Source: Oligoflexia bacterium (lineage in GTDB: Bacteria; Bdellovibrionota; UBA1018). Taken from it: a DNA stretch of 64,000 nt. Of this stretch, positions 13,574 to 25,323 are shown one piece after another; position 1 is the stretch's first letter; each line of letters begins with the position of its first letter. The stretch lies in NCBI GenBank assembly GCA_023701205.1, contig JAMPXJ010000014.1:1-64000 (forward strand), in the 5' to 3' direction. A program made the translations under genes and the position numbers. Under the pieces are notes generated by a model, which was given only the letters and a program-made list of their open reading frames with translations, was not told the origin of the DNA and did not search any database.

Positions 13574-15706
13574 ATGACCGAAAAACATGCAAGAGATCAA
13601 TACCGAATCGCACTTGCCGGCAGAAACAAGCTGCTAACCTGGAATCCGAGGGGCGTAATCGGAACGCCTGAAAAACAAGTTTTTGCGCAAATCCACGACA
13701 CTCTTGTAACGATAGGCCCAGAGCTTGCAATTCAGCCAGCGCTAGCAAATTTCACTTACGAAAAAAAGCACAACACTTTAATTTTCTCCTGGCCAACCCG
13801 ATATTTTCATGACGAAACGAAAGTCACCGCTGCCCACGTTTCCGAAGTACTAAAGGCAAGCGCTTCAAAATTTTTTGCTTCGATTCCAAACTCAAGACAT
13901 TGGCTAATCGAAAACCAGACCCCTCTAGATGAAAACACATTAATTATAAAAGACGTTTCAAAATCAGACCTCAATTCCGTCCTACATCTCCTGAGTTTAT
14001 CCGATTTTGGCATTCACAAAACATCCGCAAATACCCCCGAAGCACCAATTGGGACTGGGCCATACAGAGTCGCTTCCGTGAATCCAGAATCAATACACCT
14101 CAAGCCATTCGCTCTCCATAATCAAGCGTCATCAACAATTGCGGAACTGATTTTCACCAACACCCCTAACAATGACTACATAACCCTAGTAGAACAAAAC
14201 GAACTTGACGAATTCCTGTCTTTTGGCTCACTGAGTAACCCCAGCCATTCCAGAAACATTCTCCAGATCCCAAGCCTGCGCGCCAATTTAGGACTTATTC
14301 TTTTCAACACCCGAAGCCCACTTTTTAAACAATTAAAACTTCGCCGCACTTTCCTCTCCACTCTATATACAGCAATACGAGATGGCGCATTTGACTCTTC
14401 CTGGACCGCACCCAGAAGCATTCTTCCACCAGGATATAGAGGTCATGGCTCGATCGATTACTTGGCTCTGTTTCGAGACGAAATCGGCATTGTAGAGTCC
14501 AAAATAAACATAGGCATTACCAATTCTCGACAGTCGGATCGTCTCAATTATATTTTCAAACACCCAATATTTCGCAACTGGTGCTTTGAATTTCACATGT
14601 TCGAAGGATATGAACAATTAAAGCTCGTACATGCAAAACAACCCGAATCTTTAGACTGCAGCTTTCTCGCAATCCGAGGCGATCGCGGCGACCCCACAGA
14701 ATTTTATGAATTTTTAGATCCGACCCATCCAGTTGCACTTTTTGAATCAATCAGTCAGACCGCAACAGAAGCGTTCAATGAATTCTCAAAAGGGAATAAG
14801 TCCAACATTTCAATATCAGTTAAAAACCTAGAACGACAGATAGCTGATGAGACCTTATGCGCTCCTGTTGGATATTACTATGACATTCGCAATATCTCTT
14901 CCCGAGCGACAAACATCGTAGGGCTCGGACATCACAACGGACCACCTCGTTACCTCAAAGTTTCCTCGAGCGAGGCGATTCGAGAATTTTATCGCGCACA
15001 ACATATGCTTAAATCATTTTGGGATCAAACCTCTCAAAGAAGAGCCGATCAAAATCTAATTCGGACAATCGCCAGAACGGCGCATGATCTCAAATCTCCT
15101 ATAGCCGTACTTAAGACCATTAGCCATGCGGCACATCTAAGCGATGATATAAAACAGTTACTGAATCAAACTATTGAGCGAATGAACCAAATAGTGAACT
15201 CGACAATAGCCGAGTCAAACTGCATATCCGAGCATCAAACTCGCGGCAAGGAAGTGATAACGCCTACACTTCTCATTCAACGAGCTATCTCAGAAATAGC
15301 GAGTTACTCGAACTGCAGCGTGCGCCTGGAAACTACAGACCTAGATACTTTTAACCGCCCCGCAGAAATTCCGGAGTGCGATCTGCTTTCAATATTAACA
15401 AATATAATTAAGAATTCATCAGAAGCGCTCGACCACGGCAATTCCGGAATCATTGTCATTGAATTAGTCAAATCAAGACCACTGATTATCGAAATTAGAG
15501 ACAATGGATCCGGATTCAGCGATCAAGCTCTCGATTGTTTTTTTCTCGGCTACGTAACAAAAAGCGCAAAAAAGCACGGCTCGGGAGTTGGATTAGCCCA
15601 ATCGAAAAGCATTCTTGAGGCAATCGGCGGATCGCTAAGCATAGGGAACCTACAGCCAAATGGGGCTATTGTTCGAGTCGAAGTACCATTATTGAACCAA
15701 GATTGA
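13574..15706 (+). CDS. soluble histidine kinase with N-terminal SBP_bac_5 (peptide-binding-type) domain
   Basis: Residues about 10-440 resemble family 5 extracellular solute-binding proteins (DppA/OppA type): ALANFTYEKKHNTLIFSWP then YFHDETKVTAAHVSEVL, and G160-TGPYRV. Residues 490-710 are a histidine kinase: H-box TAHDLKSP with His504, N-box NIIKNSSEAL (Asn614), G1 D643-NGSG, and G2 H668-GSGVGL. There is no signal peptide and no transmembrane segment, so the binding domain should be cytosolic, as in the regulator SgrR, which joins a cytosolic SBP_bac_5 domain to a DNA-binding domain. The gene is AT-rich, lacks a clear ribosome site, and is followed 13 nt later by a secreted protease gene. 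No response regulator is adjacent. Confidence 0.88.
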   Translation: MTEKHARDQYRIALAGRNKLLTWNPRGVIGTPEKQVFAQIHDTLVTIGPELAIQPALANFTYEKKHNTLIFSWPTRYFHDETKVTAAHVSEVLKASASKFFASIPNSRHWLIENQTPLDENTLIIKDVSKSDLNSVLHLLSLSDFGIHKTSANTPEAPIGTGPYRVASVNPESIHLKPFALHNQASSTIAELIFTNTPNNDYITLVEQNELDEFLSFGSLSNPSHSRNILQIPSLRANLGLILFNTRSPLFKQLKLRRTFLSTLYTAIRDGAFDSSWTAPRSILPPGYRGHGSIDYLALFRDEIGIVESKINIGITNSRQSDRLNYIFKHPIFRNWCFEFHMFEGYEQLKLVHAKQPESLDCSFLAIRGDRGDPTEFYEFLDPTHPVALFESISQTATEAFNEFSKGNKSNISISVKNLERQIADETLCAPVGYYYDIRNISSRATNIVGLGHHNGPPRYLKVSSSEAIREFYRAQHMLKSFWDQTSQRRADQNLIRTIARTAHDLKSPIAVLKTISHAAHLSDDIKQLLNQTIERMNQIVNSTIAESNCISEHQTRGKEVITPTLLIQRAISEIASYSNCSVRLETTDLDTFNRPAEIPECDLLSILTNIIKNSSEALDHGNSGIIVIELVKSRPLIIEIRDNGSGFSDQALDCFFLGYVTKSAKKHGSGVGLAQSKSILEAIGGSLSIGNLQPNGAIVRVEVPLLNQD

Positions 15707-15719
15707 AGCAAGGCAAATA

Positions 15720-16826
15720 ATGCATATTCTAATTTCTCTTCTACTCTTTGCATCATCTCCATCGACAGCGGCGGAACCTCTCCAAGGAATAGCAACAACA
15801 AACGCAGGAACGATCAGGCATTGGAAGAAGCTACCTGTCGAATTATGTAGCGCTTCAAATCTCCCGAACCACATTCAAACAGAACTTCAAAATGCTATAT
15901 CCACGTGGAACTCGGCCTTTGCCCAGCCAGTGTTTAGTTTGAAATGCAAAACAAATACGACCGACTTTCAAAAAGATAAACCAGAGGAACATACGATTTT
16001 CTGGGTAACAGGTAGGTTTGGCTCAACCGGTGACCCCCTTGCGATAGCACGAACACTATCAACTTTCGACGAAGACTCAGGGGAATTATTTGACGCCGAC
16101 ATTCTTCTGAATTCAGAATCTTTCGACTGGAGTCAGTTAAGAATTGATCCGCAATCAGTATTGATCCATGAACTTGGACACATGCTGGGATTACAGCACC
16201 TTCCAATATCTAGCCACTCCGTCATGCATCAGTACCCGTATCAATCTGGAATCATTCGTAGGAAGCTTAGCCATTACGAACTAGAAGCCATTAATCGCAA
16301 GTACTTCGGAAGCAATAAGTCGATACCTGCTCACATTGATGCCTATTTCAGGAAAGACTTCGTACGAGCGATTCAACTTCTTAAAAACAGTACAAACCGA
16401 GACGCAGAGAGCTATTACATGCAAGGCCGAATAGAACTAATTACGAATAAGACAAGTCATGCCATAGATAGCTTTAAAAAGGGGATCAAGCTAGACGGAT
16501 CCAACCCCCTAATTCAGTACGCTCTATCCGAAGCATATTCTAAAGCCAGACAACTACAACTTGCTAAGAGCACCCTGAAAGGGCTTCTCAAACAATTCCC
16601 AAACTACTATGAGGGCCATGCTGATCTCGGTGTAATTCAACTTGAGGAAGGAAATACAAGCGATGCCATCGCGTCGCTGAAGCGAGCGGTGGAAATCAAC
16701 CCCGTACACTATCCAGCCTGCATTCTCCTATTCAAGCTTACACGGCAGCAAAACTATAAAGCGTGCTACGTTAGATTCGCTCCGAAGGATCGCAGTCTTT
16801 CGGAAGCCGACACTAGTGGAACCTAA
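15720..16826 (+). CDS. secreted matrixin-like zinc metalloprotease with TPR domain
   Basis: Residues 1-18 are a signal peptide. Residues 30-190 carry a metzincin catalytic domain: H150-ELGH-MLGLQH160 gives the three zinc His and catalytic Glu, and Met169 in HSVMHQY is the Met-turn expected of matrixins. Residues about 215-350 are tetratricopeptide repeats (SYYMQGRIELITNKTSHAID; GHADLGVIQLEEGNTSDAIA). It should act in the periplasm or outside. GAAGCAAGG lies 6 nt before the ATG and the gene follows the peptide-sensor kinase by 13 nt, so the two are probably one transcript. Codon use is AT-rich like the kinase. Confidence 0.88.
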   Translation: MHILISLLLFASSPSTAAEPLQGIATTNAGTIRHWKKLPVELCSASNLPNHIQTELQNAISTWNSAFAQPVFSLKCKTNTTDFQKDKPEEHTIFWVTGRFGSTGDPLAIARTLSTFDEDSGELFDADILLNSESFDWSQLRIDPQSVLIHELGHMLGLQHLPISSHSVMHQYPYQSGIIRRKLSHYELEAINRKYFGSNKSIPAHIDAYFRKDFVRAIQLLKNSTNRDAESYYMQGRIELITNKTSHAIDSFKKGIKLDGSNPLIQYALSEAYSKARQLQLAKSTLKGLLKQFPNYYEGHADLGVIQLEEGNTSDAIASLKRAVEINPVHYPACILLFKLTRQQNYKACYVRFAPKDRSLSEADTSGT

Positions 16827-17338
16827 TGCGCACCTACATCTTTTTGACCTAACTGCTTCGTATTCCGTCCGGGAATATCTTCTATTCACGAGGACTGGAA
16901 TTCTCACAGGCCGATCGAATTCAACCATACTATCCGCCTTACAGAGCGGCTCCATCGATCGAGCCGCTCCGTGCGCGCTCTGTCAATGTCACGAACATGT
17001 CATTGAGGACATTCGGAATTTCCTGACAACATTTCCTGCCAATTTTCCGCACAGCCCCATGTCAGAATCCTAACACCTCTAAGATCCGCGCCAGATGGCA
17101 CTCTTCGGGGAGCAAAACGCGAGAGCTGGTAACGCTGTCTAAAGATTAGACACTCACCACGTTCTCCCCGTGACTGAGAAGTAGACACCATTTCATCGCA
17201 GAAGCGGTTTTCAATAACAATTTCTGCAAATTACAAATAGAAGAGAAGGACAACTCAAGTACGCCGCTTGGCATCGTTCCAGCAATAGGGTAAGACAACA
17301 ACGATTTCAAATCGGATCAGAAGATCCAGGAGGAAACC
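16827..17338. other. 512-nt non-coding spacer with several repeat motifs
   Basis: No convincing gene lies here. Visible structure: a 9-bp perfect hairpin (16944-16952 with 16961-16969, 8-nt loop) without a T-run; three TGTCA direct repeats (16981, 16987, 16998); the dyad at 17136-17152; a second TAGACAC half-site at 17182-17188; and a weak promoter-like pair TTTCAA (17209) and TACAAA (17232) with a 17-nt spacer. The right part would be the promoter and a leader of roughly 95 nt for the 38-codon peptide gene. Confidence 0.6.
17136..17152. promoter_or_regulatory. candidate operator, perfect 7-bp dyad
   Basis: TGTCTAA-AGA-TTAGACA is a perfect inverted repeat with a 3-nt centre. A further TAGACAC half-site follows at 17182-17188. 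The dyad is about 57 nt upstream of the weak -35-like element and about 200 nt upstream of the peptide gene, which fits a binding site for a dimeric regulator. The regulator is unknown. Confidence 0.4.
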
Positions 17339-17455
17339 ATGAAGAAGTTCATTTTCGCTGTGATGTTGGGTGTTCTGACGATCAGCGCCACTGTGATGAC
17401 TAGCCACTATGTTTCGGATCGGTCGGTGGCGATGGCTGAGCCCTCTGACGATTGA
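17339..17455 (+). CDS. 38-residue hydrophobic/exportable peptide
   Basis: A near-perfect ribosome site (AGGAGG, 5 nt before the ATG) precedes a 38-codon frame. The peptide has two lysines at positions 2-3, a hydrophobic stretch from 4 to about 20, and a polar tail ending AMAEPSDD. The AMA before EPSDD resembles a signal peptidase I site, although it lies unusually far from the hydrophobic core; otherwise the peptide would stay as a single-pass membrane peptide. A strong terminator follows 27 nt after the stop. Alternatives are a secreted signalling peptide, a type I toxin-like peptide, or a leader peptide for the cyclase gene. No homologue is recognised. Confidence 0.7.
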   Translation: MKKFIFAVMLGVLTISATVMTSHYVSDRSVAMAEPSDD

Positions 17456-17482
17456 TACCTTCAAGTCATCAGATTTTTAAGG

Positions 17483-17508
17483 CGCTCGGGGAACCGAGCG
17501 TTTTTTTT
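17483..17508 (+). terminator. strong intrinsic terminator after the peptide gene
   Basis: CGCTCGG, loop GGAA, CCGAGCG and eight T residues (17501-17508) form a textbook intrinsic terminator. It lies between the 38-codon peptide gene and the receptor-cyclase gene, so the latter would need read-through or its own promoter. Remarkably, the cyclase frame stays open through the hairpin back to a TTG that overlaps the peptide stop. Confidence 0.93.
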
Positions 17509-17556: not shown

Positions 17557-20500
17557 GTGCAAAGAGGATTCAAATTTTTTGGAATACTCGCATTCTTTTC
17601 TACGGCGGTATTCCTTCTAGCTATTATTCTCTTCTTCGACCGGCCCATCGTAGAGGTTGCTTTACGAACTGCTGAGCAAAACTTCCTGCACAGGATCACG
17701 TTTCCGAAAACCACTGACTTCCCCTCGACCCGCTCCTACACCCGCCTAGAACAAGAGTTCCGAACTCTCTCCACCTCAAAACCTTACTGCCTGACGAACC
17801 TGACCATCGGTCACAAGTCTGCGCCAAAGCTCAAGTTTGGTCCGCCCGTTACGATCTCGAGCCAAACCGACCTGCAAGAAGTCGTTTGGCTTCTAAAATT
17901 TCGAAACCTCACTCAAGAGACCTGCGCGCTCGCTCAGGCTTCGCCCGACCCAAACCGGATCACAAGTCTTCACGAATCCGAGCAGCGCCGCCTCCTGAAA
18001 TCCCAATGGGGCCACCTCCAGGCCATACTGAAGAATGACTACTTTCTCCTGGAAACGGACCTCCTGAATCCATCGAAGGATCACACCGTCTATCTGGCGT
18101 CTTTCGGGCTGATCAACGGCACGTCTCTGGTCCTACTAGACGGCAAGCCAGTGGCGTACTTCCCCGAACGGAGCGATTCCGACCGGCTGATCAATCTCGC
18201 CCTCACGCCAGGAACCATTCATCGCCTCAGCATCGTAGTATACGGCAAAGGCTTCAATGCTCCCGGGGTTGCGCACATTAAACCCACGCCGGTCTTCGCC
18301 TTGGGGACGCCGCCCCCCGCTCTCTTCGAGAGCTCCGAGCGGCGTGATTCGTCGACCCTCTTTTTGATCATCAGCTCTGTCATTCTCTCGGCGGTGCTCC
18401 TGGTCTTCGGGCTCTATAACAGTCACAACCGCATGGATTGGCCGATCTCCCTTGCTGTGCTTCTGATCGGGTTCTCGCTCGCGCGATCGCTCCACCTCGA
18501 CCACGTGCAGTCCAGCCTGAACTCGACCTCGATTCAAGCGGTGCGCCAATACTACTTTGCCTTGTTCATGTTCTTCACGTTTCGCATCCTGCGCCAGCTT
18601 TGTTCGAACTTGTGGCCATTCGTAGCCTCGTTCTTCAGACGAGACCCCATGCCTCTGGACAAGGCCGCATCGGTGCCGCGCTGGACGGGGTGGATCGGCC
18701 CGGTCGGAACTGCACTGCTCCTCGGCTATGTCGCTATTGGCTGGTTCATCAACACTCACGAGACCTCGGGCCTCAAGGGCCTCCTCCAATACGAACTCCT
18801 AAAACCCCTCCTCGATGTCCTGGGCGTGTTCGGCTGGTTCCTCGTGATCGGCGGCACGTTCCTCGCCGCGGCGCGGATGAACCTCAAGGAGGACGAAGAA
18901 GCCCATTCCTTCTCCGAGGCAAGCAAGCTTGCAGTCCTTTCGGGCGCCTCGATGATTTTGTACGTCTACTCCTATAACGACTTCCTCTTCAGCTGGATCC
19001 GCTCCGCGATCAACCCGACTTCGAGCTCCCTGCTCAAATCCCAATCGTTGCCGATCATGGTGTCATTCGCGATCCTCTTCTTGATGGCGGCTAAGCTGCG
19101 CGAGCAACGCGCGCTCCTCAAGGTCATCCCCGATTCGATTCAGCAGATTGTCAAGCGCAGTCGTTTTGATGCGATGACGATCGACCACACCGCGACCGAG
19201 TACAATTGGCTCATGCTCAACGACATCTCGGGGTCGAGCGCCTTCAAGCTCACTCATCTGGCGATTCTCACGCACATCCTACAGAGCATCTTCCACAAGA
19301 TTCACAAGGATTACTTCCGCGATTCAATTCACTTCATCAACTCGCTCGGCGACGCGATGCTGATCGCGATCAAGTCTCCCGCGCGCCCACGCCACGATGA
19401 TCCCATCCTCGAGAAGCTAGTACGCTCCTATAGCCTGCATGTCGATGGCATCCGGGCATTCCGCGAATCCTATAGCGTCCTCTCGGCGGTGCTGTCGCTC
19501 GAGAACAAGGAGCTGTACCTCGCGCTCCAGGCGCAGGCCGAGCGCCGCAACCGGCTTGCGCTCGATATCGCCAATATCCACTTCCGCACGATTCTCACGA
19601 TCAACTACTACTTCTACGGACTGAACCACGATCTATCGAACATCGATTCGAAATCCATCTACGTCATGGCAAAATCCGAGAAGCTGCTCGCGGGCGCCGA
19701 GGGCGGCGGCTTCATCGTCTTCCCGGACCTGATGCGCGTACTCGAGACCTGCTTCGAAGGACTGGGCTCGCACTTCGAGCGCTGCGCGATCGACAAGTCA
19801 CGCGCCGCGCCCGGGCTGCGCGATCATCTGCCGGATCATGCCTTCGCGCTCAAGGTCGGGTGCGAGGACGCCTTCGAAGCCTACCTCGAGGGCCTGTACG
19901 GAGGGCCGCTCTACCTGCGGCGCTCGGCCACAGGTGAAAACTACGTGGAGGTCTCCGCTCCAGTCCGGAAGTTCTGCGCGATGCTCCAGGCGTTTCGCGC
20001 CGATCTTCCCGCGCTGGTGAAGCATGCCGAAGGCGCCTTGCCGAAGCTTCAAAACTTTTCCGAGAAAAACCACGTGCTCAAGACGCTCTCCGAAGCGGCC
20101 TGCGCCGCGGGAATCTGGGAAGACCGCCCCGGCACGGGCGAGCTGCACGAGCGCCTCCAGGCCCTCGTTCGCGCCATCGGCGTTCCGACGCTTCCCCTCA
20201 TCCAGAACATCAAGGCGAAGGACCGCCTACTGGAGCCCGCGGCCCTGCTCCGAAGCATGGGATCCAGCGATCCCATCGAGCGAAACCGCGCCGTGCGGTT
20301 CGCGGCGCTCGCGCGCGTGAAGAACCCGTTCCGTCCCGGGGCGATGCCGCGCACCGAGTTCTATCGCGGGCTTTGCCGGGGATACCTGGAGCGCTTTGAG
20401 GTGTTCTCGGTCGAAAGCCATCTCTTCCTGCTCATTCAGCTCAAGGGCGATCCGGAGCTTACCCGCGTCTTCGCCGAGACCGCCTCCGAGCCGCGCCTGC

Positions 20501-20625
20501 GTGAGCGCACGCGTAAGCTCCAGGCCTACCTCTCGGCTTCGCCGGCTCGAAGCGTGCGAGGACTGCCGGTACTGATCCGTGAGATGCTGAGCCAGGATTC
20601 TGCCGAAGAACGAAAGGCCGGCTGA
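17557..20625 (+). CDS. 7TM receptor with degenerate class III nucleotidyl cyclase domain
   Basis: The product (about 1022 residues from this GTG) has one N-terminal transmembrane helix, a periplasmic domain of about 230 residues, seven further helices (18350-19100), and a cytosolic cyclase-homology domain. The layout is like 7TMR-DISM receptors. The two metal-binding Asp of class III cyclases are present at 19222 (NDISG) and 19351 (LGDAM), 43 residues apart as expected. The usual Asn-x3-Arg near the product site reads Tyr-x3-Lys (IYVMAKSE), so activity is doubtful. The start is uncertain: the frame is open from TTG 17452 across the terminator, no ribosome site marks any start, and GTG 17557 is the closest to the first helix. 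GC content rises along the gene. Confidence 0.8.
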   Translation: MQRGFKFFGILAFFSTAVFLLAIILFFDRPIVEVALRTAEQNFLHRITFPKTTDFPSTRSYTRLEQEFRTLSTSKPYCLTNLTIGHKSAPKLKFGPPVTISSQTDLQEVVWLLKFRNLTQETCALAQASPDPNRITSLHESEQRRLLKSQWGHLQAILKNDYFLLETDLLNPSKDHTVYLASFGLINGTSLVLLDGKPVAYFPERSDSDRLINLALTPGTIHRLSIVVYGKGFNAPGVAHIKPTPVFALGTPPPALFESSERRDSSTLFLIISSVILSAVLLVFGLYNSHNRMDWPISLAVLLIGFSLARSLHLDHVQSSLNSTSIQAVRQYYFALFMFFTFRILRQLCSNLWPFVASFFRRDPMPLDKAASVPRWTGWIGPVGTALLLGYVAIGWFINTHETSGLKGLLQYELLKPLLDVLGVFGWFLVIGGTFLAAARMNLKEDEEAHSFSEASKLAVLSGASMILYVYSYNDFLFSWIRSAINPTSSSLLKSQSLPIMVSFAILFLMAAKLREQRALLKVIPDSIQQIVKRSRFDAMTIDHTATEYNWLMLNDISGSSAFKLTHLAILTHILQSIFHKIHKDYFRDSIHFINSLGDAMLIAIKSPARPRHDDPILEKLVRSYSLHVDGIRAFRESYSVLSAVLSLENKELYLALQAQAERRNRLALDIANIHFRTILTINYYFYGLNHDLSNIDSKSIYVMAKSEKLLAGAEGGGFIVFPDLMRVLETCFEGLGSHFERCAIDKSRAAPGLRDHLPDHAFALKVGCEDAFEAYLEGLYGGPLYLRRSATGENYVEVSAPVRKFCAMLQAFRADLPALVKHAEGALPKLQNFSEKNHVLKTLSEAACAAGIWEDRPGTGELHERLQALVRAIGVPTLPLIQNIKAKDRLLEPAALLRSMGSSDPIERNRAVRFAALARVKNPFRPGAMPRTEFYRGLCRGYLERFEVFSVESHLFLLIQLKGDPELTRVFAETASEPRLRERTRKLQAYLSASPARSVRGLPVLIREMLSQDSAEERKAG

Positions 20626-21221
20626 TGTTACGCTACGCGCTGGCCTTCCTCACCGCGGGTGCCTTGCTCTTTCTCAACGACCGCTTCGCCATCGAGAGCA
20701 TCCTGGTGCCCTCGTCTTCCATGCTGCCCACGATCGAGCCTAATGAGAGGCTCTTTCTCCGGCACCGCTGGCTGGGCGGCCTCAAACGCTTCGATGTCGT
20801 GGTCGTTTCGAGCCGCCATTTCAAGCACCGGATCATCAAGCGCCTCGTCGGAATGCCGGGAGATTGCATTCAGCTCAAGGATTCGTGGCAACTCGTGCTC
20901 AACGGCAGGACCCTGGATTACCAACGCCCGGCCGACGCGGCCCCGGGCACATCCATCCTCAGCGAGGAAGGGCATCATCTGATTCAGTTCGAGAAAAACG
21001 AGAGATTCTCCTTCGAGACGAAGTTCGCCCGGGAGACGCTGTGTCTCGAACAGGACGAGTACTTCGTCCTCGGGGACAACCGCCTGGCCAGCGATGACGG
21101 GCGCTCGAGCGGCCCCATCCGGCTCGAGGAGATCGATGGTAAGGCGATCGGGATCTGGTACTCCTATGACAAGAAAGGAGCGCGGCTCCGCACGGAGCGC
21201 CTGCTCAAACCCATCCTCTGA
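20625..21221 (+). CDS. lepB: signal peptidase I
   Basis: The 198-residue protein has a short N-terminal membrane helix, then the S26 signature boxes: SSSMLPTI with the catalytic Ser, RIIKRLVGMPGD with the catalytic Lys, and YFVLGDNRLASDDGRSSGPI. It cleaves Sec signal peptides at the periplasmic face. The ATG overlaps the cyclase stop (TGATG), so both are translated together. Whether it is the general enzyme or a dedicated one for nearby exported products cannot be seen; the tight coupling to the receptor is unusual. Confidence 0.93.
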   Translation: MLRYALAFLTAGALLFLNDRFAIESILVPSSSMLPTIEPNERLFLRHRWLGGLKRFDVVVVSSRHFKHRIIKRLVGMPGDCIQLKDSWQLVLNGRTLDYQRPADAAPGTSILSEEGHHLIQFEKNERFSFETKFARETLCLEQDEYFVLGDNRLASDDGRSSGPIRLEEIDGKAIGIWYSYDKKGARLRTERLLKPIL

Positions 21222-21244
21222 GCTTCATGCTATACTGATCCCGC

Positions 21245-22009
21245 ATGCCGGACACTCGACGAACTCCTTCCTGGCTCCTGAAGACCCCTTTGGCCCACCG
21301 CGGATTGCATCAGGGTACCGCGATTCCCGAGAATTCCCGGGCCGCCTTCGAGCGCGCGATCGCGGCGGGTTATGGCATCGAGCTCGATCTACGGCTGACG
21401 CGCGACGGTGAGGTCGTGGTTTTTCATGACCGGGAGCTCTCGCGCTGCTGCGGCGTGGATGCCCGTGTCCTGGAGCTCTCGCTCGACCAGCTGCGCAACC
21501 TGCGTCTTTTCGGGAGCGGGGAGTGCATCCCCACCCTCGAGGAGTGCCTCGCGCTCGTTCGGGGTCGCGTCCCGCTTCTGATCGAGCTCAAGCGCGATGC
21601 GGGGATGCCATTTTATGAGGATCGGGTGCTCGGGATCCTCGCTCAGTACGATGGACCTTTCGCCGTTCAGTCTTTCAACCCGAGGACCATCCGCTGGTTT
21701 CGGACGGCGGCACCTGACATTCCGGCTGGACTTCTCGCCGGAAGGGCCGAAACGCCGGAGCTCTCCCGGGCGAAAAGGATCGCGCTCCGCTTTCTGCTCT
21801 CGATTCCTTACGCGAAGCCCGCGTTCATCTCCTACGAGCTCGAGGGGATGCCGGAGCGCTTTCTGCGTTGGGTCCGGGGCGTCACGGGACTTCCGTTTCT
21901 CTTCTGGACGATCCAAACCGAAGAGGCCCTGACGCGAGCGCGTGCCTTTGACGCGAACGTGATTTTCGAGGAGATCGCGCCGATGGACAACGCTCGGTCG
22001 CGTCGGTAA
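21245..22009 (+). CDS. glycerophosphodiester phosphodiesterase
   Basis: The 254-residue protein is a GDPD-family TIM barrel: AHRGLHQGTAIPENSRAAF, GIELDLRLTRDGEVVVFHD and LLIELKRD hold the catalytic His pair and metal-binding Glu/Asp residues. It splits glycerophosphodiesters from phospholipid turnover into glycerol-3-phosphate and an alcohol. There is no signal peptide, so it is the cytosolic (UgpQ-like) form. It starts 23 nt after lepB and is followed by two small genes on the same strand. Confidence 0.92.
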   Translation: MPDTRRTPSWLLKTPLAHRGLHQGTAIPENSRAAFERAIAAGYGIELDLRLTRDGEVVVFHDRELSRCCGVDARVLELSLDQLRNLRLFGSGECIPTLEECLALVRGRVPLLIELKRDAGMPFYEDRVLGILAQYDGPFAVQSFNPRTIRWFRTAAPDIPAGLLAGRAETPELSRAKRIALRFLLSIPYAKPAFISYELEGMPERFLRWVRGVTGLPFLFWTIQTEEALTRARAFDANVIFEEIAPMDNARSRR

Positions 22010-22022
22010 AGTAGGCTTTCGC

Positions 22023-22433
22023 ATGAAGACCTTCGCCTTCAGACTCACGCCCGGGCAGGACCTGAAACTCGAGATCCTCGCCTTCATTCGCGCGCGAGAG
22101 CTGCATGCCGCCACCTTGCTCACCTGCGTGGGGAGCCTGACGAGGGCTTCGCTCCGGCTCGCCGACCGGGAGGACGCAAGCCTTGTCGAGGGTCCCTTCG
22201 AGATCGTTTCCCTCGTCGGCACCGCGAGCGCCGCGGGTGGCGCGCACCTGCATCTAGCGATCTCGGATGGCGATGGCCGCACCCTGGGCGGGCATCTCAT
22301 GGAAGGCTCGCTCATCCACACGACGGCCGAGATCGTGATCGGAGAGCTGGCGGAGGTGGAATTCCGCCGCGCGCCGGATCCCGCCACCGGTTATGACGAG
22401 CTGAAGGTTATTCCCAGAAAACCCGCGAAATAA
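22023..22433 (+). CDS. DUF296 (PPC domain) protein
   Basis: This 136-residue protein is a stand-alone PPC/DUF296 domain: FRLTPGQDLKLEILAF, the TCVGSLTRASLR turn, GGAHLHLAISDGDG and GGHLMEGSLIHTTAEIVI match the family, which forms trimers. In bacteria it is sometimes proposed to bind DNA or metal through the conserved His residues; the biochemical role is unknown. It lies 13 nt after the GDPD gene and 10 nt before the DUF302 gene. Confidence 0.88.
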   Translation: MKTFAFRLTPGQDLKLEILAFIRARELHAATLLTCVGSLTRASLRLADREDASLVEGPFEIVSLVGTASAAGGAHLHLAISDGDGRTLGGHLMEGSLIHTTAEIVIGELAEVEFRRAPDPATGYDELKVIPRKPAK

Positions 22434-22443
22434 GGAGAATCCC

Positions 22444-22830
22444 ATGGCCGTGAACTGGAAGAAGGAAGTCGCCCTGAACACCGATGCCGCGATCGCGCGC
22501 CTGACCCAGGCGCTGCAAGCCGAGGGTTTCGGCATCCTGACCCGGATCGACATGCACCAGAAGGTCAAAGAGAAGCTCGGCAAAGAGATGCCGGCCACCG
22601 TGATCCTGGGCGCGTGCAACCCCGGTCTCGCCTACGAGGCCGCGATGATCAACATGGACGTGACGAGCCTCATGCCCTGCAACGTCGTCGCGCGGGATCT
22701 CGGAAACGGCAGGACGTCCGTCGAGTTCGCGCGTGCGACGCCGATCCTGGCCACGCTTCACGACTCGAAGCTCGATGGCATCGCCCGACAGGCCGACGAG
22801 AAGCTCGAGCGCGCATTCAAGGCGATCTGA
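22444..22830 (+). CDS. DUF302 protein
   Basis: The 128-residue protein matches DUF302: an N-terminal helix (DAAIARLTQALQAEGFGIL), a central ILGACNPGLAYEAAMINMDV, and ARATPILATLHDSKLDGIA. The CNP segment is conserved in the family. An AAGGAG ribosome site precedes the ATG. The family function is unsettled; some members are linked to sulfur or metal metabolism. The gene ends 15 nt before the convergent uvrD gene. Confidence 0.9.
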   Translation: MAVNWKKEVALNTDAAIARLTQALQAEGFGILTRIDMHQKVKEKLGKEMPATVILGACNPGLAYEAAMINMDVTSLMPCNVVARDLGNGRTSVEFARATPILATLHDSKLDGIARQADEKLERAFKAI

Positions 22831-22845
22831 GGGCGAGCGCCCGCC

Positions 22846-25323
22846 TCACTCCACGTAAGCCGCGACATAGCGGAACAGGAACTTCCGATGCGTCTTGCCC
22901 GGGAATTCGACGGTCACCTTGCGGTCATCGCCTGAGCCCTCGGCCGCGATGATCGTGCCGCGTCCGTACTCGGGATGCTGGAGCTTCGAGCCGATCACGC
23001 GATCTCCCGCCGAGGCGCCGTAGCCCGAACCCAAGGTCGGAGCCGCAGGCTTCCATGGAGCCGGGCCACGCGGGACGTCCTGATTGAAATCGTCGCCGCG
23101 GGAGTACTCGCGCGAGGAGCGCACCTGAGAAGCGCCGGCGGCGCTGCCGTAACCGCCGCTCCCTCCGCCGCCCAGGCCCAAAGAGCGCGCATAGTCGCGC
23201 AGCTCGATCAGGTCCGAGGGCATCTCGTCAAAAAACCGCGAAGGATCGTTGTAGTTGGGCGTGCCCCAGATCCGCCGCACCACGACGTTCATCAGATAGA
23301 GCTGCTCGCGCGCGCGGGTCATGCCGACGTAGCAGAGGCGCCGTTCCTCTTCGACGTCCTCTTCGTTCTCGCCTTCCCATTGCTTGATCGAGGGGAAAAG
23401 CCCTTCCTCCATTCCCGCCATGAACACGACGGGAAACTCCAGGCCCTTGGACGAATGCAGGGTCATCATCTTGACCGAGCTGGCGTAGCTGTCGAGCTTG
23501 TCGGTGTCGGAAGCGAGCGAGGACTGCTCGATGAAAAGCGCGAGCAGGTCGGATTTCTTCAGCTGCCGCTCCTCATCGGGGATCGAATGGAAATTCGTCT
23601 CGTCGAACTCCTGCAGGAGGGTATCGAACTCCTCGAGGTTCTCGATCCGCGCCAGGGCTTCTTCGGTTCCCTCCTCCTTGAGCGAGCGGACGTAGCCGGT
23701 CTCATCCAGGATCAGATGGTAAAGCTCGGCCAGCAGGAGCTTGGGCTGCTCGTCGATGAAACGCTGCATGAGCCGGGTGAAGCCGGCGATCTTCTTCGCG
23801 GTGCCCGCGGAGGTGATCGAGGCGTCCGATCCCGCGCGCTGGAGGAGCTCCCAGTACGAAGGCGGCGGCCCCCCGACGTTACCGGCCTGGAACGCGCTCG
23901 AAAGATGCAACTCATCGATCTTCTCGAGCGTGGTCTTGCCGATCCCTCGAGCGGGCACGTTGATGATGCGCTTCATGCTGATCGAGTCCGAAGGGTTCAG
24001 GATCGCCTTGAAATACGAAAGGACGTCCTTGATCTCCTTGCGGTCATAAAATCGCAGGCCCCCCACGATCTGATAGGGGATCTTCTCGCGCCGGAGCACG
24101 TCCTCGAACTGGCGGCTCTGGGCGTTGGTGCGGTAGAAAATCGAGAAATCCCCGAAGGAACGTCCCTCGTTCGTGGCCAGGCGCTTGATCTCCGCCACCG
24201 TCAGCTCGGCCTCGGCGCGCTCGTCGGGGAGCTGCAGCCGGACGATCTTGTTGCCGTCGGCGTTCTCGGTCCAGAGCGTCTTGTCCTTGCGCGCGGAGTT
24301 GTTGGCGATCACCCGCCCCGCGGCCTTGATGATGTTGCGGGTGGAACGGTAGTTCTGCTCGAGCTTCACGACCTGCGCGCCCGGGAAGTCGCGCTCGAAG
24401 TCCAGGATGTTGCGGATGTCCGCGCCGCGCCACTTGTAGATGGACTGGTCCTCGTCGCCCACCACGCACATGTTCTGGTGTCCGCCCGTCCCGCGGCCCG
24501 CGAGCGCCGACAGCAGGAGATACTGCGCGCGATTGGTGTCCTGGTACTCGTCCACATGGATGTAGCGGAAGCGCTGCTGGTACCTCTCGCGCAGGTCGGG
24601 ATGATCGCGGAAGAGCCGGTAGGCCATGCAGATGATCTCACCGAAATCGAGCGCGTTATTGGCGAAGAGATCCTTCTGATACTGCTCGTAAACGAGCTTG
24701 AGCTTCTTCTCGAAGACGTTATGGGCGGCCGGATCGAGCTCGTGCGGCTCGACCGCGTCGCATTTCACGCGATTGATCCCGGCCTGGATCGCCTTGGGAT
24801 TGATCGACTTCTCGTCGATCCCGAGCTTCTGGAACACGCCCTTGACCAGCGAGAGCTGATCCGAGTCGTCGTAGATCACGAAAGGCTTGGTGAAAGGCGT
24901 GCGATCGAGCTCCCGCCGGAGGATGCGCACGCACACCGCGTGGAAGGTGCCGATCTCGGGCGTGCCGTAAACGCGCGTTCCGGCCTCGCGCAGGATCTTC
25001 TCGACGCGCTCGCGCATCTCGCCGGCGGCCTTGTTGGTGAAGGTCACGGCCATGATCTGATGGCCGGGAACCGCTTTCGCATCCATCAGGTAAGCGATCC
25101 GCGAGGTGAGCATCTTCGTTTTGCCGGAACCCGCGCCCGCGAGCACGATCAGCGGCCCGTCGGTGATCAGGGCCGCCTCGCGTTGACGCTCGTTCAAGCC
25201 ATCGATATAAGGCGGAATTCCCCCTGAAGGCTTTCGTTCCTGAACCGGCTGGCCGAACTGGGGGAATTTAAAGCGGCTCGCGCCCCCGGGAGGGCCGGAC
25301 GGTGCGGATTCGAAGTCGATCAT
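22846..25323 (-). CDS. uvrD: UvrD/PcrA-type DNA helicase
   Basis: The 825-residue protein is an SF1A helicase. Walker A is LAGAGSGKTKMLTSRIA, motif II is DEYQDTN, then VVGDEDQSIYKWRGAD and QNYRSTRNI, and VKMMTLHSSKGLEFPVVFMA near the C-terminus. It unwinds DNA 3' to 5' in nucleotide-excision and mismatch repair and clears RecA or stalled polymerase. The C-terminal 60 residues (HPEYGRGTIIAAEGSG) form the Tudor-like RNA polymerase-binding domain of PcrA/UvrD. It is the last gene after glmU, glmS and the ClC gene, 39 nt downstream of the latter. Confidence 0.96.
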   Translation of the reverse strand: MIDFESAPSGPPGGASRFKFPQFGQPVQERKPSGGIPPYIDGLNERQREAALITDGPLIVLAGAGSGKTKMLTSRIAYLMDAKAVPGHQIMAVTFTNKAAGEMRERVEKILREAGTRVYGTPEIGTFHAVCVRILRRELDRTPFTKPFVIYDDSDQLSLVKGVFQKLGIDEKSINPKAIQAGINRVKCDAVEPHELDPAAHNVFEKKLKLVYEQYQKDLFANNALDFGEIICMAYRLFRDHPDLRERYQQRFRYIHVDEYQDTNRAQYLLLSALAGRGTGGHQNMCVVGDEDQSIYKWRGADIRNILDFERDFPGAQVVKLEQNYRSTRNIIKAAGRVIANNSARKDKTLWTENADGNKIVRLQLPDERAEAELTVAEIKRLATNEGRSFGDFSIFYRTNAQSRQFEDVLRREKIPYQIVGGLRFYDRKEIKDVLSYFKAILNPSDSISMKRIINVPARGIGKTTLEKIDELHLSSAFQAGNVGGPPPSYWELLQRAGSDASITSAGTAKKIAGFTRLMQRFIDEQPKLLLAELYHLILDETGYVRSLKEEGTEEALARIENLEEFDTLLQEFDETNFHSIPDEERQLKKSDLLALFIEQSSLASDTDKLDSYASSVKMMTLHSSKGLEFPVVFMAGMEEGLFPSIKQWEGENEEDVEEERRLCYVGMTRAREQLYLMNVVVRRIWGTPNYNDPSRFFDEMPSDLIELRDYARSLGLGGGGSGGYGSAAGASQVRSSREYSRGDDFNQDVPRGPAPWKPAAPTLGSGYGASAGDRVIGSKLQHPEYGRGTIIAAEGSGDDRKVTVEFPGKTHRKFLFRYVAAYVE

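Follow-up and report, generated by a model that had tools for sequence, protein, structure and literature searches.

The 64-kb window, by which we mean the whole stretch of DNA that was analysed, carries a very short open reading frame with its own upstream and downstream signals, immediately ahead of a gene with a cyclase-like motif. The features are, in order:

17136–17152, no strand assigned: palindrome TGTCTAAAGATTAGACA, a member of a class-wide TGTCTAAN3TTAGACA family
17269–17284, plus strand: sigma-54-like −24/−12 element TGGCATCGTTCCAGCA, with GG at 17270–17271 and GC at 17282–17283
17328–17333, plus strand: Shine-Dalgarno sequence AGGAGG, 5 nt 5' of the ATG
17339–17455, plus strand: micropeptide gene, with ATG at 17339, 38 sense codons and TGA at 17453–17455
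17429–17437, plus strand: codons for A-M-A, conserved across the four-member family as A[MY]A
17479–17508, plus strand: intrinsic terminator, a 7-bp, extendable GC stem with eight T
17557–20625, plus strand: partner gene for a multi-TM protein carrying a cyclase-like motif of class III (LMLNDISGSS ... SLGDAML); the start is probably GTG 17557
20625–21221, plus strand: signal peptidase I gene, directly after the cyclase gene, in the same order in genome G001

An earlier note had described an AGGAGG, an ATG, 38 codons, a stop, a 7-bp hairpin and eight Ts, all of which are present at this locus, the AGGAGG falling just ahead of the start that the note had placed at 17339. The 38-residue translation, MKKFIFAVMLGVLTISATVMTSHYVSDRSVAMAEPSDD, begins with Lys-Lys, continues with a hydrophobic stretch (residues 4–20) and a polar linker, and ends with AMA (residues 31–33) and the tail EPSDD; a single-sequence AF2 model gives one confident helix (residues 2–33) and a loose tail. 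Only eight ATG starts in the 64 kb lie 3–9 nt behind an AGGAGG, namely that of the micropeptide, those of six ORFs of at least 95 codons and that of one 10-codon frame. With a strict terminator defined as a 7-bp GC-rich stem plus at least 7 T of 9, the one behind the micropeptide ORF is the sole example in the window, and the ORF is the sole short one in 504 kb of the same genome to combine a strong Shine-Dalgarno sequence, a signal-type N-terminus and a strict terminator. Its codon-position GC values (0.46/0.41/0.67) are coding-like and resemble those of the following gene, unlike those of the AT-rich genes before it, and its frame score exceeds that of stop-free shuffles (P = 0.008). In all likelihood 17339–17455 is a genuine gene, and its product a tiny peptide that would be exported, the export signal being judged from hydropathy.

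The AT-rich genes upstream form a two-gene island (13574–16826; 43–46% GC in a 63% GC genome), which encodes a kinase, in which an SBP_bac_5-type domain is joined to HATPase_c and no TM start is evident, and a secreted-type M10/TPR protein. A single full-length relative of the kinase was found in the phylum (G302), beside dnaE. We rejected a grouping of the peptide with this pair on account of its GC3 (0.67 versus 0.41–0.43) and because the G302 kinase stands without the companions seen here. Downstream, the order cyclase-lepB-GDPD-PCC-uvrD (17557–25323) is largely kept in G001, of the same genus (L023), where the contig stops inside the cyclase gene, so that the peptide position lies outside its coverage.

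The palindrome was encountered as an exact 21-bp match between the intergenic region and two other genera. Across the class, GTCTAAN3TTAGAC is commoner than its reversed control, and bases flanking the palindrome outside the search pattern are conserved as well. A sigma-54-like element scoring at least 13 occurs within 220 nt of 55 of the 74 sites (74%) versus 41 of 765 controls (5.4%; P = 2e-43), mostly at a distance of 40–100 nt, and signal-type ORFs lie within 260 nt of 54 of the 74 distinct sites compared with 66 of 196 control gene starts. Class-wide, the extended form CTGTCTAAN3TTAGACAG (loci L040–L089 and L125–L149; 58 genomes) is followed by sigma-54-like promoters 40–100 nt on and, for the most part, by genes whose starts are of signal type. 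In the window, the −24/−12 element begins 117 nt after the palindrome, contains the GG-N10-GC of such promoters, and scores 13.0 of 15.1, a value equalled by 0.6% of shuffles. Palindromic enhancer sites have been reported to lie mostly within 100 nt of −24/−12 promoters (PMC4641369); judged by this spacing, the layout here resembles that of enhancer sites before sigma-54 promoters in regulons governed by enhancer-binding proteins, whereas TGTCTAAN3TTAGACA itself is absent from the text of that paper and from the literature searched. The palindrome at 17136–17152 is thus probably the enhancer site of a sigma-54 activator, and the class-wide combination apparently represents an undescribed regulon of exported proteins.

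As to relatives, the micropeptide has no paralogues in its own genome, phage records gave no match, and Rfam returned sub-threshold matches only, around the terminator. The small-ORF homology search that the earlier note had proposed yielded no believable match by direct tblastn against 58 genomes of the class, but the upstream-site class led to relatives in three other genera:

L074:2696, genome G002: 40 codons, MKKAIVLVLFGIALLAGSFVVSTTSNSKASAAYACSTNPC, behind a site of the palindrome class
L156:1501, genome G003: MRKYILSLAIALLVAAASVGVSYALSSSGNSAYACATERCN, from a two-sequence profile search
L177:717, genome G022: MKAKKMVVAVIVLTLALTAVLTATHVVTGKPAAMACSCQPC, also from the two-sequence profile search

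The family was assembled stepwise with a permissive profile, starting from the window and G002 peptides, and other weak profile matches were left out on sequence grounds. It comprises four peptides of 38–41 aa from four genera, with a common build in which an M[KR]K-type start leads into a hydrophobic helix and a polar linker, followed by A[MY]A and then a tail of 5–7 residues, namely EPSDD in the window and CSTNPC, CATERCN and CSCQPC among the relatives; the window tail thus lacks the cysteines carried by the other three. A[MY]A and the short variable tail are held in register while the helix varies freely. The window and G022 peptides resemble each other better than any of 2000 region-wise shuffles (tail alone, P = 0.0025), and those of G002 and G003 are also related (P = 0.001); taken singly, the likeness of the window peptide to those of G002 and G003 is weak (P = 0.03 and 0.005), with non-significant tails. 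The significance of the family rests on its promoters and its cyclase adjacency, neither of which was a search criterion for G003 and G022. Sigma-54-like elements precede all three relatives (scores 13.6–13.9), including 13.9 in G003 and 13.8 in G022, although both of these loci had been chosen by peptide sequence. At these two loci the enhancer-like sites are degenerate, with a palindrome copy bearing two mismatches 116 nt upstream in G003 and, in G022, a candidate site, GTCTTAAACTTCGAC, about 166 nt upstream, which was recognised by eye. The identical 187-nt spacing from operator to ATG in the window and G002 was discarded as evidence, the likeness of the two DNA leaders being non-significant (P 0.06–0.10). 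In G002, a hairpin resembling a terminator, with seven T, and another, degenerate copy of the palindrome, GTGTCTAAAGTTTTGTCAC, lie in the stretch between palindrome and sigma-54 element (L074:2545–2612). A 43-aa exported-type ORF in G030 (L082:2281–2412; MRKLTIVGSLVVMIVTLASELLVSADTGVAEGQTYIQVDTQSE) stands behind a palindrome and a sigma-54-like element as well; it has no adjoining cyclase gene and was rejected as a family member.

All four micropeptide genes directly adjoin a gene whose product carries the motif D-hydrophobic-x-x-[STHEQ] ... GD[AGS], of class III type, co-directionally in the window and tail-to-tail, a few nucleotides apart, in G002, G003 and G022. Such a neighbour was found at none of 137 control loci (64 other profile-match and 73 other operator loci), where two regex matches appear, on reading, to be unrelated proteins; sampled DNA of G000 and G002 contained no further multi-TM ORFs with the motif. 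Because the linkage persists across this change of orientation, a functional link between peptide and cyclase-like protein is favoured. At least three TM segments are predicted for the neighbours in the window, G002 and G003, and none for G022 within the 235 aa covered. In the BLASTP comparisons made among them, the four neighbours showed no likeness to one another. The C-terminal part of the window protein is 61% identical to a G001 protein. The G002 neighbour weakly matches solved adenylate cyclases in the PDB (E = 0.017), for which those of G003 and G022 gave no match. Where the earlier note had spoken of a cyclase gene downstream, class III-type motifs do follow a TM domain, but no Pfam or NCBIfam model matched any of the neighbours scanned; from motif and layout, we regard a cyclase as plausible. 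An AF2 model of the cyclase segment was uninformative, and pattern scans of whole genomes for the cyclase and for the kinase returned no relatives. In G002 (L074:2824–3083), the cyclase-like frame seems to be broken near L074:3083, and its C-terminal portion runs on to the peptide gene in a different frame, as an assembly error or decay would produce. A G054 fragment related to the window cyclase has no such small ORF in the 3.6 kb covered.

The consecutive, co-directional order of ORF, terminator and cyclase gene in the window had invited the idea of a leader peptide in an attenuator that controls the cyclase gene. In the terminator, the hairpin CGCTCGG-GGAA-CCGAGCG (17483–17500) is followed by eight T (17501–17508), its stem can be extended to 11 pairs using the A/G and T tracts, and its folding energy of −17.4 kcal/mol (z −4.6) was equalled by none of 200 shuffles. 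However, the longest upstream complement to a terminator arm measures 6 nt, leaving no candidate antiterminator, and the peptide has no run of one amino acid. Above all, the peptide gene cannot be a cyclase leader because the two genes are convergent in the three other genera. We have rejected the attenuator, to which we grant next to no probability.

We propose instead, at roughly even chances, that the locus encodes an exported micropeptide that works with the adjoining cyclase-like protein; the gene anatomy, the peptide family, the sigma-54-type promoter, the upstream-site class and the cyclase adjacency are read from sequence, and transcription, export, cleavage, cyclase activity and a physical or regulatory link are inferred. 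An enhancer-binding protein on TGTCTAAAGATTAGACA would activate sigma-54 RNA polymerase at 17269–17284, and a short transcript would stop at the intrinsic terminator. The Lys-Lys/hydrophobic start would take the micropeptide into the Sec pathway with its tail facing the periplasm, where a cut after A[MY]A, a possible signal-peptidase site, might release the tail of 5–7 residues. The signal peptidase I encoded behind the cyclase gene is, by its position, a possible processing enzyme. The tail, or the anchored peptide, could then act as ligand or accessory partner of a receptor-type cyclase and tune a cyclic-nucleotide signal. Only tentatively do we go further and suggest that the variable tails serve as pheromones or as modulators, with the adjoining receptor-type membrane cyclase as their direct sensor. 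The notion of a signalling peptide precursor, voiced in the earlier note, has gained ground through the conserved A[MY]A before a short variable tail, the constant cyclase linkage and membership in a sigma-54 regulon whose products are exported.

The main rival, which we consider somewhat unlikely, is an uncleaved single-helix membrane micropeptide that packs as a small subunit on the TM part of the cyclase-like protein or on another membrane complex, rather than a released signal. It would fit the genetic linkage equally well, and it would accommodate both the confident AF2 helix (residues 2–33) and the position of A[MY]A, which, present in all four peptides, lies 10–12 residues past the hydrophobic core and thus far for signal peptidase I. 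Against it stands the fact that A[MY]A stays in register, together with a short tail that is variable and partly Cys-rich, despite the varying helix. We regard as less probable still an exported small protein of some other function, for instance in the envelope or in stress, for which the cyclase neighbourhood would reflect regulation or history: genes behind the upstream site do mostly encode assorted exported proteins, yet the adjacency in four of four members and in two orientations, against 0 of 137 controls, speaks for a closer connection. A type I toxin-like peptide under antisense RNA control, likewise raised in the earlier note, would match the size and hydrophobicity of the micropeptide but is highly improbable in view of its acidic tail, the lack of paralogues in the genome, its place in the sigma-54 regulon and the conserved cyclase linkage; nor did the minus strand over and near the ORF show an antisense feature in the form of a promoter of the consensus type, the one type sought.

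The peptide signals known from bacteria are sensed by either histidine kinases or receptors in the cytosol. To our knowledge, no peptide ligand or micropeptide partner has been established for a bacterial receptor-type cyclase, and we found no precedent for a peptide-cyclase pair in the literature searched; the sequence evidence assembled here suggests a bacterial peptide-plus-receptor pair that is undescribed as far as checked. If true, this would be a bacterial pair for peptide-to-cyclic-nucleotide signalling, and the conserved arrangement would lend itself to direct testing, with a single short gene, a single candidate receptor and a single small-molecule readout. The upstream-site/sigma-54 class, in turn, sketches a regulon of exported proteins throughout a bacterial class.

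Among known systems, AgrD/AgrC and ComC/ComD are Gram-positive peptide systems with membrane receptors whose output is a histidine kinase. The micropeptide locus shares with them a short precursor gene adjoining a membrane-receptor gene, and would differ in having a cyclase-like output domain; no dedicated processing transporter or AgrB was seen. RRNPP systems are defined by a propeptide of 10–100 aa with a Sec-type export signal and an adjoining cytosolic TPR receptor of 250–500 aa at a distance of −60 to 400 bp (PMC10075063). With 38 aa, the micropeptide falls within this length range and resembles propeptides such as Phr and PapR in its basic start, hydrophobic core and putative cleavage region, and in having its last 4–10 residues as candidate signal. 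Unlike there, its neighbour is a membrane cyclase-like protein with no TPR receptor in range, the tails of its relatives carry cysteines, and no test made here places its host in a Gram-positive lineage; the nearest TPR protein (15720–16826) was rejected as receptor, being 512 bp away, with a signal-type start and an M10 peptidase match. Compared with receptor-type class III cyclases and 7TMR-DISM proteins (PMC1592074), the neighbours differ in that no part of them matches Pfam, but they have in common a TM bundle followed by a domain with the D...GD motif, and those in the window and G002 also carry an extracytoplasmic stretch after TM1.
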